Origin: Gammaproteobacteria bacterium
GTDB taxonomy: Bacteria; Pseudomonadota; Gammaproteobacteria; Steroidobacterales; Steroidobacteraceae
Direction: 5' to 3'
DNA length: 64,000 nt
Assembly (NCBI GenBank): GCA_010027845.1
Contig: RGUL01000002.1
Coordinates: 1-64,000 of the forward strand
Shown piece after piece: positions 8,493-15,278 of this stretch; positions within the stretch are counted from its first letter, which is position 1; each line of letters starts with the position of its first letter. Made by a program: the position numbers and the translations under genes. Below the pieces are notes generated by a model, which was given only the letters and a program-made list of their open reading frames with translations, ran no database searches and had not been told where the DNA came from.

Positions 8493-10082
8493 ATGTACAC
8501 CGAGTTGCGTTACTGGCCCTGGCTGTCCACACCGATCCTCGCGCTGCTCGCGCTCCTCTGGCAGCCGTGGCTCGCGATCATTTTCGCGGCGTTGTTCACC
8601 GTCGGCTTGAACGACGTGCGTCAGTCGCACCGCTCGGTGTTGCGCAACTATCCGCTCACCGGGCATTTGCGCTTCATGCTCGAATACATCCGTCCGGAGA
8701 TCCGTCAGTACTTCATCGAGGACGACGAAGCCGAGTATCCCTTCTCACGCAATCAGCGCGCCTTGGTCTACGCCCGCGCCAAAGGCCAGAACGACAAGCG
8801 CGGCTTCGGCACGCTTAAAAACATGTACGCCCAGGATGCCGAGTGGCTGCTGCACTCGAATCGACCGCGGCACGTCGATCCGCAATCCTTGCGCATCACC
8901 ATCGGCGGGCCGCAATGCCGTCACCCCTACTCCGCCTCGATCTTCAACATCTCGGCCATGAGTTTCGGTGCGCTCTCGGCCAATGCCATCCGGTCATTGA
9001 ATAAGGGCGCCGCACTCGGCGGCTTCATGCACGACACGGGCGAAGGCTCGATCTCACCCTATCACCGTGAGTTCGGCGGCGATCTCGTATGGGAAATAGG
9101 CTCGGGTTACTTCGGTTGTCGCACGGCCGATGGGCGTTTTAGCGACGAGAAATTCGCCGCGCAGGCTGCCGACCCACAAGTGAAGATGATCGAAATTAAA
9201 CTTTCGCAAGGTGCGAAACCCGGGCACGGCGGCGTGCTCCCGGCCGCAAAAGTCAGTCGAGAGATCGCCGCGACGCGTGGCGTCGAGATGGGTCGCGACT
9301 GCGTCTCCCCCGCTAGTCACTCGGAATTTTCGACGCCCCTCGAATTACTGCGATTTATCGCCCGACTGCGCGAGTTGTCGGGCGGTAAGCCGGTGGGCTT
9401 CAAACTGTGCGTCGGTCATCCGACCGAATGGTTCGGAATCGCCAAAGCGATGCTCCGAACCGACATCGTTCCGGATTTCATCGTCGTCGATGGCGCCGAG
9501 GGCGGCACCGGCGCGGCACCGGCGGAATTCAGTGATCATGTCGGTATGCCGTTGCGCGATGGACTACGGCTCGTGCACAACACGCTGATCGGACTCGGAC
9601 TGAGGCCGCGCGTGAAGATCGGTGCCGCCGGCAAAATCATCTCGTCGTTCGATCTCGCACGTACCCTCGCGATCGGCGCGGATTGGTGTAACTCGGCACG
9701 CGGTTTCATGTTCGCCGTCGGCTGCCTGCAATCGCTGCACTGTCACACCGACGCATGCCCGACCGGCGTTGCGACGCAAGACCCTTTACGACAAAAAGCT
9801 TTGGTGGTCGCCGATAAATCGCTGCGCGTCAAAAGTTTTCACGCACAGACCGTCGCCTCGCTCGCCGAACTCGTCGGTGCTGCGGGCCTCGAGCACCCGT
9901 CGCAATTGCGACCGACGCATATCATGATGCGCGATGCGAACGGTCGCGGAATTTCTTTTGCACGCTCGCTCGACAAAATCACCAAAGGTGCACTGCGTAG
10001 CGAGTCGTTCGACGCCGAGAGTTTTCCAGAACCGTTCCGCAGCTATTGGGCCGATGCGAGTGCAGAACGGTTCACGGCTTGA
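8493..10082 (+). CDS. FMN-binding glutamate synthase family protein
   Basis: GltB-like FMN/Fe-S domain 'MSFGALSANAIRSLNKGAALGGFMHDTGEGSISPYH...VVDGAEGGTGAAP...SLHCHTDACPTGVATQDP'; ORF open from 8433, candidate starts 8433/8475/8493. Confidence 0.88.
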   Translation: MYTELRYWPWLSTPILALLALLWQPWLAIIFAALFTVGLNDVRQSHRSVLRNYPLTGHLRFMLEYIRPEIRQYFIEDDEAEYPFSRNQRALVYARAKGQNDKRGFGTLKNMYAQDAEWLLHSNRPRHVDPQSLRITIGGPQCRHPYSASIFNISAMSFGALSANAIRSLNKGAALGGFMHDTGEGSISPYHREFGGDLVWEIGSGYFGCRTADGRFSDEKFAAQAADPQVKMIEIKLSQGAKPGHGGVLPAAKVSREIAATRGVEMGRDCVSPASHSEFSTPLELLRFIARLRELSGGKPVGFKLCVGHPTEWFGIAKAMLRTDIVPDFIVVDGAEGGTGAAPAEFSDHVGMPLRDGLRLVHNTLIGLGLRPRVKIGAAGKIISSFDLARTLAIGADWCNSARGFMFAVGCLQSLHCHTDACPTGVATQDPLRQKALVVADKSLRVKSFHAQTVASLAELVGAAGLEHPSQLRPTHIMMRDANGRGISFARSLDKITKGALRSESFDAESFPEPFRSYWADASAERFTA

Positions 10083-11355
10083 GCAACACCCGCCGCGAAT
10101 GGCACCGTAATAAAAAGACCGATATCCAGGGCAGAATCGCCGCGATCGTGACCGCGGCCATCGCACCGCCAAGCGCAGCAGCGCCGGGCACCAAAGTGGC
10201 GCTCGTGGCGCATTCGAGCAGCAGGATCCGCATACCGCGCTGGTAATTACGCTCGATCGTTTGACCGAACCCCATCGACGAGGCGAGTCCGAACGCAAGC
10301 GTGCGCGACAAAATCATCAACACGAACGGTAGTAACCCGAGCAGCTCCGGCGGCGATTCAGTGAGCGCGCGGATCACGATCGCGATCAAAAGTCCGAGTG
10401 GCAGGCCGATCGGTAGCAACCACCAAGAGCGACGCGAATAGTCCGCGACGATGCGGCCATCGGACGCGGCGGCGATCCAACCGTAGACGTGCGCACCCCA
10501 AGCCATTTGGAACGCACCGATGAACAACGCCATCAACGGTTCGCCGGTACGCACGGCGAAACCGTACAGTCCTGCCGCTTCCGCATCCACGCCCCATCGA
10601 AACGTCGAGGAAACCGCGAGATCGGCAACGTACTTCGCGAGCAGACCGGCCATCACGGCGAGCCCCATGTTCACCGCACGATTCAAAAATACGCGATCAA
10701 AGCCGCGCTGCCGAAGAATTCCCGAACGCCAAGCGAGTACCGCGATGAAGAATGCACTCGCGAGACAACCTGTGGCGATCGAAGCAGCGAGCGGATCCAT
10801 ACCGAGACGTAATGCGATCTCGAGACAGGCGACCGTCAATGGCAACGACATGACGGACAGCATCGCAACGACTCGCGCCTGCCCCAAAATTCTGAGGTCG
10901 GTGTGAAACATCATTGCAACATTGCCGAGCGCGCATTGCAGCGGCAGCCACGGTAACAACGCGACGCTTTGCCAGTACCCGAATCGATGTGCGACGACGA
11001 GCGCGACCGCTAGTGTCGAGCCGGCGAGCGTGCCGGTCACCGCTTGCAACACGACCCCGGCGCGCAACGCACCGAAGCGGTGCGTCGGGCCGAGATCGGT
11101 GACGGCCTGCATGTAGCCAGGCTTCATCCCGAGTTGGCTGATGCTGCCGAACACGGTCATCAACACGCCGAGCAACGCCCACTCGGCCAACGCGAGCGAC
11201 GTCAGCGACGGCGCGAGGCGCGCGGTAGCGTAAACCGAACCTAGCGCACCCGGGACCGCCGCCAGCGCAAAACTCGCCCAACTCGCGAGGAATTTTCGAT
11301 CTTCCAAACCTGACCCAACCCAATCCATTTCGAGGTTCACGCTGCGGCGAACCAT
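10072..11355 (-). CDS. polysaccharide biosynthesis/flippase-like membrane protein
   Basis: About 12 hydrophobic segments, Wzx/MATE-like; ORF open to 11583 but likely start at 11355 (MVRRSVNLEMDW) or 11328. Confidence 0.65.
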   Translation of the reverse strand: MVRRSVNLEMDWVGSGLEDRKFLASWASFALAAVPGALGSVYATARLAPSLTSLALAEWALLGVLMTVFGSISQLGMKPGYMQAVTDLGPTHRFGALRAGVVLQAVTGTLAGSTLAVALVVAHRFGYWQSVALLPWLPLQCALGNVAMMFHTDLRILGQARVVAMLSVMSLPLTVACLEIALRLGMDPLAASIATGCLASAFFIAVLAWRSGILRQRGFDRVFLNRAVNMGLAVMAGLLAKYVADLAVSSTFRWGVDAEAAGLYGFAVRTGEPLMALFIGAFQMAWGAHVYGWIAAASDGRIVADYSRRSWWLLPIGLPLGLLIAIVIRALTESPPELLGLLPFVLMILSRTLAFGLASSMGFGQTIERNYQRGMRILLLECATSATLVPGAAALGGAMAAVTIAAILPWISVFLLRCHSRRVLLKP

Positions 11356-11412: not shown

Positions 11413-12919
11413 ATGAAGAAGATACAGCAGTGGGTCTACCGGACCCTGTTCGACGTGCACGGCACCGGTTCGTTGCCGCAAACGCTCGAAAAATTCATCA
11501 ACTGGTTGATCGTCGCGAATTTGCTCGCGCTGATGCTCGAGCACATCCCGACCGTGCACCAAGGGCGAGAAGAAATCTTCCACGACTTTGACGTAGCGTC
11601 GGTAATTTTCTTCACCGTCGAATATTTCTTGCGGCTATTCGCAGCACCGGCGAATCCTGCGCTCGCCGGCAAACGCTTCCCGGGGCTCCCCGTTCGCGAT
11701 CATCGACCTGCTGGTCATCGCACCGTTCTGGTTGCATTACACAGGCTTGGTCGAACTCGATCTGCGCGCGCTGCGAGGACTACGACTGCTGCGTCTACTG
11801 AAGTTCTTGCGCGACGTCGTACCGGCAATCCAGGAGTTCCGGATCGCCAATCGCGGCAAGACTTGGCGTCAGAAAGCGAACGCACTGATGAACGAAACGC
11901 CGACGTCGGGCAGGCTGCAGGGTCAGCTCGACATGGTGCTCATTTTTCTGATTATTTTGAGCGTCATCTGCGTTTTCTTGGAAACGGTACCGGAGATCGC
12001 ACAGCCGCTACACGAAGAGTTTCATTGGATCGATTTGATCTCGATCGCGATTTTCTCGGCCGAATATCTCTTGCGACTGTACGCGGCACCGGAGCAGGCA
12101 AAAGATAAAACGCCGTTGATGGCACGCCTGACCTTTCCGTTCAAACCCAACAGCATGGTCGATTTGGTCGCAATCCTGCCGTTCTATCTGCAGTTCATGA
12201 TCTCGCTCGACCTGCGGTTTATCAGAATCTTGCGCGTGCTGCGCGTCACGAAGCTCACACGCTACAACACGGCGATGAAAACCTTCGGCTTGGTGTTCGA
12301 GCGCGAGAAACGTGCGTTCGCCGCGGCCTTGTTCATCACCTTTTTGTTGATCATCCTGTCGGCCGCGGTCGTCTATGAAGTTGAGCACCCGGCACAACCG
12401 GAAAAATTCGACACCATGTTTAGGTCGGTTTATTGGGCGACCGTGACGCTCGCGAGCGTCGGCTACGGCGACATCTCGCCGATCACCCCCATCGGTCAGT
12501 TCTTTACGATCGTACTCGCCATCCTCGGCATTGCGATCGTCGCGGTGCCCGCCGGCATCATCGGTTCGGCGTTCACCGATCAGTTGCGTCAAGATCGCGA
12601 AGACATGGAACGGCAAATCGACGATGCGCTCGCCGACGGCGTCCTCACCGATGCGGAAACAGAAGTCCTCAATGAGGAGCGCCTTCGCTTGCACATGACC
12701 GAAGAGCAATTCGAGCTACTCAAGCAGCGCGCGCTCGAGAAGCGTGGCGCGATCGCCGATCCCAACTCGCGCGAGGCGCTGGTACGCAACACCGCGATGA
12801 TGATCGAGGAGCTGGAGAAGAAACTCGGTGGCGTGCCGCTCGAAGAAGCGCTCGATCGAATTCGCGGTATGGCGATCACCGAGAAGCAAAAGGCTGCGCT
12901 GCGGAGCCTATTGAACTGA
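11413..12919 (+). pseudogene. voltage-gated K+ channel with two tandem voltage-sensor domains, frameshifted near 11675-11695
   Basis: Frame 1 from 11413 gives VSD1 S1-S2 (...FFTVEYFLRLFAAPANPALAGKRFPG); frame 2 then continues ...SPFAIIDLLVIAPFWLHYTGLVELDLRALRGLRLLRLLKFLRDVV into VSD2 and a pore with TLASVGYGD. Confidence 0.8.
11732..12919 (+). CDS. ion transporter / voltage-gated potassium channel (3' part of the frameshifted gene)
   Basis: TTG-initiated ORF in frame 2; S4 'LDLRFIRILRVLRVTKLTRY', pore 'YWATVTLASVGYGDISPITPIGQFFTIVLAILGIAIVAVPAGIIGSAF'. Confidence 0.8.
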   Translation: MHYTGLVELDLRALRGLRLLRLLKFLRDVVPAIQEFRIANRGKTWRQKANALMNETPTSGRLQGQLDMVLIFLIILSVICVFLETVPEIAQPLHEEFHWIDLISIAIFSAEYLLRLYAAPEQAKDKTPLMARLTFPFKPNSMVDLVAILPFYLQFMISLDLRFIRILRVLRVTKLTRYNTAMKTFGLVFEREKRAFAAALFITFLLIILSAAVVYEVEHPAQPEKFDTMFRSVYWATVTLASVGYGDISPITPIGQFFTIVLAILGIAIVAVPAGIIGSAFTDQLRQDREDMERQIDDALADGVLTDAETEVLNEERLRLHMTEEQFELLKQRALEKRGAIADPNSREALVRNTAMMIEELEKKLGGVPLEEALDRIRGMAITEKQKAALRSLLN

Positions 12920-12923
12920 CGCC

Positions 12924-13367
12924 ATGCTGACGATCGACGAAGGTATTCTGCGGGTTTTGAGCGGCGTCAGTTTGTTCTCCGGGCTCGATCGCGTGCACCT
13001 GATCTGGTTACTGTCCGCGGCCGAGCGCGTGAACGTCGGCGCCGAACAGCTGTTCTTCGACGAGGGCGATCCCGGCGATAAGTTCTTCGTTTTCATCAAA
13101 GGTTCGACCGTCGTCGAAAAACGCGCCGGCGAAGGCTGGGCGAAAATCGTCGATCTACGACCCGGCGACACGTTCGGCGAGATGTCGATCATCGACGGGG
13201 TGCCACGCTCAGCACGCGTCCGCGCGCTCGGTGATTCGATCGCTCTCTGCCTGCCGCAACGTCGATTGGAGAGCTCCCCCGAAGTGGCTGCGATAATCTA
13301 CCGGAACATCGCGCGTATGCAGGCCGCACGCGTGCGCGAGGCGAACGAAAAACTGTTTTCCAAATAA
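12924..13367 (+). CDS. cyclic nucleotide-binding domain-containing protein
   Basis: 'LFFDEGDPGDKFFVFIKGSTVV...LRPGDTFGEMSIIDGVPRSARVRALGDS' including PBC-type FGEM...PRSA. Confidence 0.9.
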   Translation: MLTIDEGILRVLSGVSLFSGLDRVHLIWLLSAAERVNVGAEQLFFDEGDPGDKFFVFIKGSTVVEKRAGEGWAKIVDLRPGDTFGEMSIIDGVPRSARVRALGDSIALCLPQRRLESSPEVAAIIYRNIARMQAARVREANEKLFSK

Positions 13368-14810: not shown

Positions 14811-14918
14811 CACCGCGCGCAACCGCACGATTTTTTGATTGACGGCGCGACGCCGGAGGCGTACTCCTCTAGCCGGATTGGATCGATTGGTTCAACGCTA
14901 GGATGGGAGTGGATTAGG

Positions 14919-15278
14919 GTGAACAAAACTAGAAACGCGATTCCTGGAGTCGTCGCGGCAATACTCGCCGTTGGCGCAGGCATGGCCTCGTTCTCGGCCG
15001 TCGCCCAGACCGCGCCGGGCGGTCCGCCGCCGGGCGGTGGGAACATGGGTCCGCCTCCGGGTGGCACCGCAGGCGGTCCGCCGCCGCAAGGTGGCATGGG
15101 TGGACAAGGTCAACCTCCGCAAGGTGGCTCGGGCGGCCAACCCCCGGGTGGGATGAAGCCGCCGCCCGGCGGCACCGGGTCGCCGCCGCCGGGCGGTGGG
15201 AACATGGGTCCGCCTCCGGGTGGTATGGGCGGCAACTGCACGCCTAAGCCGGACGGCACGAAGCCTCCCGGCTGCTGA
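14919..15278 (+). CDS. secreted Gly/Pro-rich low-complexity protein
   Basis: GTG start (ORF open from TTG 14835); signal peptide 'VVAAILAVGAGMASFSAVAQ' followed by GGPPPGGGNMGPPPGG-type repeats and C-terminal CTPKPDGTKPPGC. Confidence 0.6.
   Translation: MNKTRNAIPGVVAAILAVGAGMASFSAVAQTAPGGPPPGGGNMGPPPGGTAGGPPPQGGMGGQGQPPQGGSGGQPPGGMKPPPGGTGSPPPGGGNMGPPPGGMGGNCTPKPDGTKPPGC
15024..15064 (+). repeat. 41-nt direct repeat, copy 1
   Basis: ccgccgccgggcggtgggaacatgggtccgcctccgggtgg; identical to 15183-15223. Confidence 0.85.
15183..15223 (+). repeat. 41-nt direct repeat, copy 2
   Basis: Identical to 15024-15064; offset 159 nt keeps frame. Confidence 0.85.

Follow-up and report, generated by a model that had tools for sequence, protein, structure and literature searches.

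To our knowledge, the Kv-superfamily channels described so far have a single voltage sensor for each pore repeat. Two voltage-sensor domains (VSDs) in a single polypeptide are found in the two-pore channels (TPCs), where they follow the order VSD-pore-VSD-pore. The TPC family is treated in a 2024 review of voltage sensors (PMC13095418), from which the terms for a tandem VSD that were searched are absent. In a 2025 review on the modularity of K+ channels (PMC12332018), the figure on VSD contexts has Hv, Kv, the phosphatase, and the transporter only, with no VSD-VSD-pore arrangement. A VSD-VSD-pore channel was not found in open-access full texts either; since subscription journals, preprints, and domain-architecture databases lay outside this scope, an earlier description cannot be excluded. 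It is within this limit that the opinion of the first-pass annotation, namely that such a layout is not known as characterised, can be upheld.

This layout is encoded at positions 11413-12919 (+) of the window, as we call the whole stretch of 64,000 nucleotides that was analysed. Two reading frames there encode VSD1 (S1-S4), a linker, VSD2 (S1-S4), S5, the P region, S6, and a C-terminal domain. The first-pass annotation had read the same arrangement from the letters, and it is confirmed: the motifs that it quoted, both sets of S2, S3, and S4 as well as TLASVGYGD, are all in place. Frame 1 opens with ATG 11413 and contributes the N-terminus and S1-S2 of VSD1 (11413..11683, +; Ion_trans 5-59), including the S2 segment FFTVEYFLRL with its Phe/Glu charge-transfer residues; the open reading frame itself (11413-12108) continues past them into a meaningless tail. 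Following a frame break in the S2-S3 loop (11676..11700, +, from the DNA alignment with the orthologue L005), frame 2 encodes S3 with its Asp and an S4 with R-R-R-R-K-R at every third residue (11687..11818, +). The linker between the two sensors (11819..11926, +) has conserved GRT-RQK and NETPTSGRL motifs and is positively charged by the loop charge count, and is thus predicted to be probably cytoplasmic. VSD2 (11927..12268, +) has all six S4 charges and is followed by a normal S4-S5 linker. The stretch of S5, pore helix, selectivity filter, and S6 (12308..12577, +) is supported by alignment and by a match to Ion_trans_2 (PF07885, E 4.9e-17); the filter TLASVGYGD at 12446-12472, kept in the aligned orthologues, is a canonical K+ filter between two pore helices. 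The C-terminal helical cytoplasmic domain in frame 2 (12578..12919, +, with the stop codon at 12917-12919) is the least conserved part, with a mean identity of 54% within the window's family.

The Pfam Ion_trans model gives 21.6 bits for the VSD1 fragment of the window and 109 bits for VSD2 plus pore, and a genome search returned three separate Ion_trans matches at 11488-11652, 11687-11815, and 11930-12589. The two sensors of the window have 45 identities over 112 positions, or 31 SD over shuffles. When hydropathy and the charged S4 helices are taken together, ten transmembrane segments are counted, in keeping with the roughly ten that had been proposed earlier. The only other Ion_trans protein of the window's genome (L001, at G000:C1:31675-32421, -) has one VSD, a TMTSTGYGD filter, and a long loop from S5 to the pore.

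Set beside the Kv superfamily, the protein has the K+ filter of the VGYGD type between two pore helices, and it has twice, in VSD1 and in VSD2, the S1-S4 unit with an S4 charge at every third position, an S2 Glu, and an S3 Asp. The 6-TM plan of a Kv channel, with a single VSD in each pore subunit, is not what is found, as intact orthologues have two; the protein therefore belongs to the Kv superfamily with a variant layout, and is not a canonical Kv channel. The proteobacterial one-VSD Kv channels (Ion_trans plus Ion_trans_2, e.g., L023-L031) align with it over VSD2, the S4-S5 linker, the pore, the filter, and the early C-terminal domain at about 35-41% identity, but they have a single VSD and a TLTTVGYGD filter where the tandem proteins have TLASVGYGD; many of them also finish with a zinc-ribbon-like CPHCG tail, which is absent from the tandem proteins. 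Eukaryotic Kv channels (KCNQ, Kv2, Kv4, Shaker) are the closest solved structures, to VSD2-pore by sequence and to VSD1 by fold, yet they too have one VSD per pore subunit, and none aligns across both sensors and the pore. The methanococcal Kv model of NCBIfam (K_channel_Meth, NF040645), also with one VSD, matches weakly over VSD2-pore, with 27-67 bits where the cut-off is 300, and the nearest NCBIfam models are all far under their cut-offs. Unlike the TPCs with their two VSD-pore repeats per chain, the tandem proteins have a single pore and one filter. Hv1, the voltage-sensing phosphatase, and the VSD-transporter likewise have a VSD without its own S5-S6, but the effector differs, the extra VSD of the tandem proteins being fused to a complete Kv channel. 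Two features of Hv1, a VSD without a pore domain and an Asp as the S1 selectivity residue, are not met here: a pore is present, and the S1 acid of VSD1 is Glu in 33 of 34 tandem proteins (Asp in one), as it is Glu in VSD2.

The first-pass annotation had named as one refutation the case that orthologues start at the second VSD. Instead, the VSD1-VSD2-pore frame runs uninterrupted in eight genomes from the window's family and in 23 genomes from the genus g286, and intact copies are present in 32 genomes or plasmids besides the window. In the window's family, the intact frame of 505-508 aa spans from an ATG before VSD1 to a stop after the C-terminal domain in genomes of three genera (G001, G006, G007, G010, G011, G021, G052, and G061), and the gene is present in some form in 12 of 217 genomes, the window included. 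In a second family, that of the genus g286, 24 of 151 genomes have the gene, all without an internal stop except one; the open frames have 530-558 codons, and many of them lie in closed single-contig genomes (the g286 genomes measure about 2 Mb, and many consist of a single contig). A diverged tandem member of 491 aa (WP_159082572.1), annotated only as 'ion transporter', is carried by a plasmid of Gemmobacter aquarius. Every intact protein scanned has two Ion_trans stretches, against one in a one-VSD paralogue from g286, and a home-built sensor profile finds two sensor domains per tandem frame and one in all single-VSD relatives. Samples of the order, the class, the phylum, and the Alphaproteobacteria gave one-VSD relatives only, g286 excepted (the matches in the 289 sampled genomes of Alphaproteobacteria were all one-VSD), and no relative was found in viral contigs. 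With intact orthologues in few groups and one-VSD relatives elsewhere, the tandem layout is real and conserved, with a distribution both patchy and narrow. One g286 copy (L122, G922:C1:790475-791995) stands at 56-64% to the window-family type versus 43-45% to the type of its own genus, which points to a likely horizontal transfer between the families. A metagenome-assembled genome titled Klebsiella pneumoniae (L010, CAMCBU010000004.1) has the same locus as G007, a member of the window's genus; the organism name looks wrong.

The window's own copy is broken. It had been suggested that a one-base repair near 11685 would complete VSD1; the difference in frame is there, but the lesion is not a single base. 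In the DNA alignment, the window is 14 bases shorter than L005, its nearest intact orthologue (74% identity), in the S2-S3 loop of VSD1, so removing one base restores the frame and not the lost residues. The dN/dS values against L005 are 0.15 for S1-S2 of VSD1, 0.03 for S3-S4 of VSD1, 0.09 for VSD2, and 0.17 for the pore; these ratios are rough, with dS near saturation. The S3-S4 piece of VSD1 has 94% amino acid identity to that of L005, and the dN/dS of VSD1 is 0.06-0.11 across intact and window pairs. Judged by these values, purifying selection acts on both sides of the break. The strong conservation around it suggests that the break is recent or an assembly error, and the two cannot be distinguished without reads. 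Other damaged copies exist: the same loop is broken by a seven-G run in G019 (L011), a break lies between VSD2 and the pore in G043 (L022), G955 (L142) has one in-frame stop, and the copy of G023 ends at a contig end. A programmed frameshift or phase variation was considered and rejected, since two genomes have different lesions in the same loop, a 14-base gap and a seven-G run, with no common frameshift signal. The linker has an in-frame ATG (11888..11890, +), inferred to be a possible internal restart, from which the broken copy could make an ordinary one-VSD channel; no clear ribosome-binding site was seen for it. The copy in the window's strain is either a one-VSD channel, or dead, or misassembled.

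In the alignment of the 34 tandem proteins, both sensors keep their charges. All six S4 positions (R-R-R-R-K-R) are retained in 33 proteins for VSD1 and again in 33 for VSD2, the S2 Glu and the S3 Asp are invariant in both sensors, and the S2 Phe is present in 33 of the VSD1 and in all 34 of the VSD2 sequences. The exception is Gemmobacter, where three of the six S4 charges are lost in VSD1 and two in VSD2; VSD1 may thus in some cases be less than a full sensor. The two sensors are about equally conserved, with mean identities of VSD1 versus VSD2 of 0.67 versus 0.64 in the window-family type and 0.72 versus 0.74 in g286. Within a single protein, VSD1 shares 31-44% identity with VSD2, at 10-34 SD over shuffles, and their profiles match with a probability of 99.9. 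By their charges and their conservation, both sensors look functional. Failure of the first segment to fold as a VSD had been named as a further refutation. Modelled alone (14-row alignment), VSD1 comes out as a predicted VSD of four membrane helices, its S4 carrying a long extension (pLDDT 76, pTM 0.66), and all 50 PDB matches listed are subunits of voltage-gated K+, Na+, or Ca2+ channels, with KCNQ channels in the lead among them (highest TM 0.69, by query length). The full-length AlphaFold monomer, made with six sequences, is poor (pLDDT 62, pTM 0.39), and the site where VSD1 packs cannot be read from it.

The origin of VSD1 is only partly constrained. In both trees, the VSD1 sequences form one group and the VSD2 sequences another, the latter including the one-VSD paralogue from g286; a recent internal duplication of VSD2 is rejected, as VSD1 groups separately in both. 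A joint grouping of VSD1 and VSD2 is neither supported nor rejected (AU p 0.39), so whether VSD2 was duplicated or another VSD was fused stays unresolved, and the VSD1 of Gemmobacter is too diverged to be placed. The one-VSD paralogue is present in some g286 genomes (L102:4544-5722, -; L167:17822-19009; L168:17850-19061), and in two of them some 13 kb separate it from the tandem gene. It carries the VSD1-VSD2 linker at its N-terminus and so looks like the product of VSD1 loss from a tandem ancestor, an inference that we regard as possible. It may possibly be a partner subunit as well.

Some of the neighbouring genes deserve mention. Four bp downstream of the channel lies a gene for a single-domain cyclic-nucleotide-binding protein (12924-13367, +; PF00027), and a role for this protein as a regulatory subunit in trans was weighed. 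Its gene adjoins the channel in G006, the nearest relative (83% identical), and is located elsewhere in G011 (56%); with adjacency limited to the nearest relative and not seen in other orthologues, the idea was dropped, and the protein is probably no part of the channel system. In g286, a conserved gene of 188 codons (L101:4853-5419, +) lies upstream and overlaps the start of the tandem gene by 4 bp. Its product is 77-86% conserved in four g286 genomes, has one hydrophobic segment near the N-terminus and no Pfam match, and is a candidate partner of the tandem channel. Also adjoining the channel in the window is a 419-aa membrane protein (10072-11331, -), polysaccharide-flippase-like by eye, 67% conserved in G006, and without a Pfam match. 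A short protein at 14835-15278 (+) has Gly/Pro-rich, GGMGPPPGG-like repeats after a signal-like N-terminus, again with no Pfam match.

The reading we favour, at a probability of roughly three in four, is a K+ channel subunit of about ten TM segments, with VSD1, linker, VSD2, pore, and C-terminal domain in one polypeptide, in which VSD1 is most likely a second voltage input. The tandem arrangement, its conservation, the full charges of both sensors, and the selection acting on VSD1 are demonstrated. Four such subunits would probably assemble around a single K+ pore into a tetramer that has eight voltage sensors, an inference for which there is no tetramer model. VSD2, joined to S5 by the normal S4-S5 linker, would be the direct driver of the gate. 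VSD1 would be an extra, charge-complete sensor tethered through the cytoplasmic linker of about 36 residues; that it senses voltage, moves, and is coupled to the gate, biasing VSD2 or the pore so as to shift or steepen gating, is inferred. The stronger proposal, that all eight sensors are functional and that a peripheral VSD1 controls or biases VSD2, each subunit thereby integrating two voltage inputs, could in our judgement equally well be right or wrong. What counts against the favoured reading is the absence of electrophysiology and of a tetramer model, the poor monomer, the broken copy in the window, and the charge loss in the VSD1 of Gemmobacter.

Whether the gene in the window is decaying or misassembled, and yields no more than a one-VSD channel started at ATG 11888, is a question on which we see even odds. 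The 14-base break, the further breaks in three other genomes, and the linker kept by the one-VSD paralogue L102 would all fit, but VSD1 shows selection before and after the break, orthologues are as a rule intact and have a start codon, often together with a purine-rich stretch, ahead of VSD1, and the matter touches the copy of the window and not the family. A misassembly that joined two genes or contigs to create the layout itself has next to nothing left in its favour: the window does come from a metagenome-assembled genome of 182 contigs, but dozens of independent genomes share the layout, g286 has a conserved neighbourhood, and the closed genomes already refute such an artefact for the family. 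For VSD1 itself, it is conceivable, if rather unlikely, that the domain serves structure, assembly, or localisation and is not coupled to the pore; it has no pore of its own, any coupling to the gate is unknown, and Gemmobacter does without half of the S4 charges of VSD1, whereas a domain with a purely structural role would have no need of the six S4 charges, the S2 Phe and Glu, and the S3 Asp that 33 of the 34 proteins keep. Quite improbable is an independent, Hv-like pathway for protons or cations fused to a K+ channel. That VSDs alone can conduct has been established for Hv1 (PMC12332018), but VSD1 shares the conserved acid at the end of S1, a Glu, with VSD2 and with ordinary Kv relatives, and no Hv-specific feature was seen in VSD1.

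The tandem family would bear on two questions: how steep gating becomes with a given number of sensors, and by what means a sensor that lacks an S4-S5-pore connection of its own can be coupled. The intact proteins, of bacterial origin and each the product of a single gene, are small at about 506 aa, which makes expression, electrophysiology, and cryo-EM practical. Carried by some aquatic bacteria, a conserved family in which each pore comes with two charge-complete sensors would be a natural experiment on the number of sensors that a pore can use.
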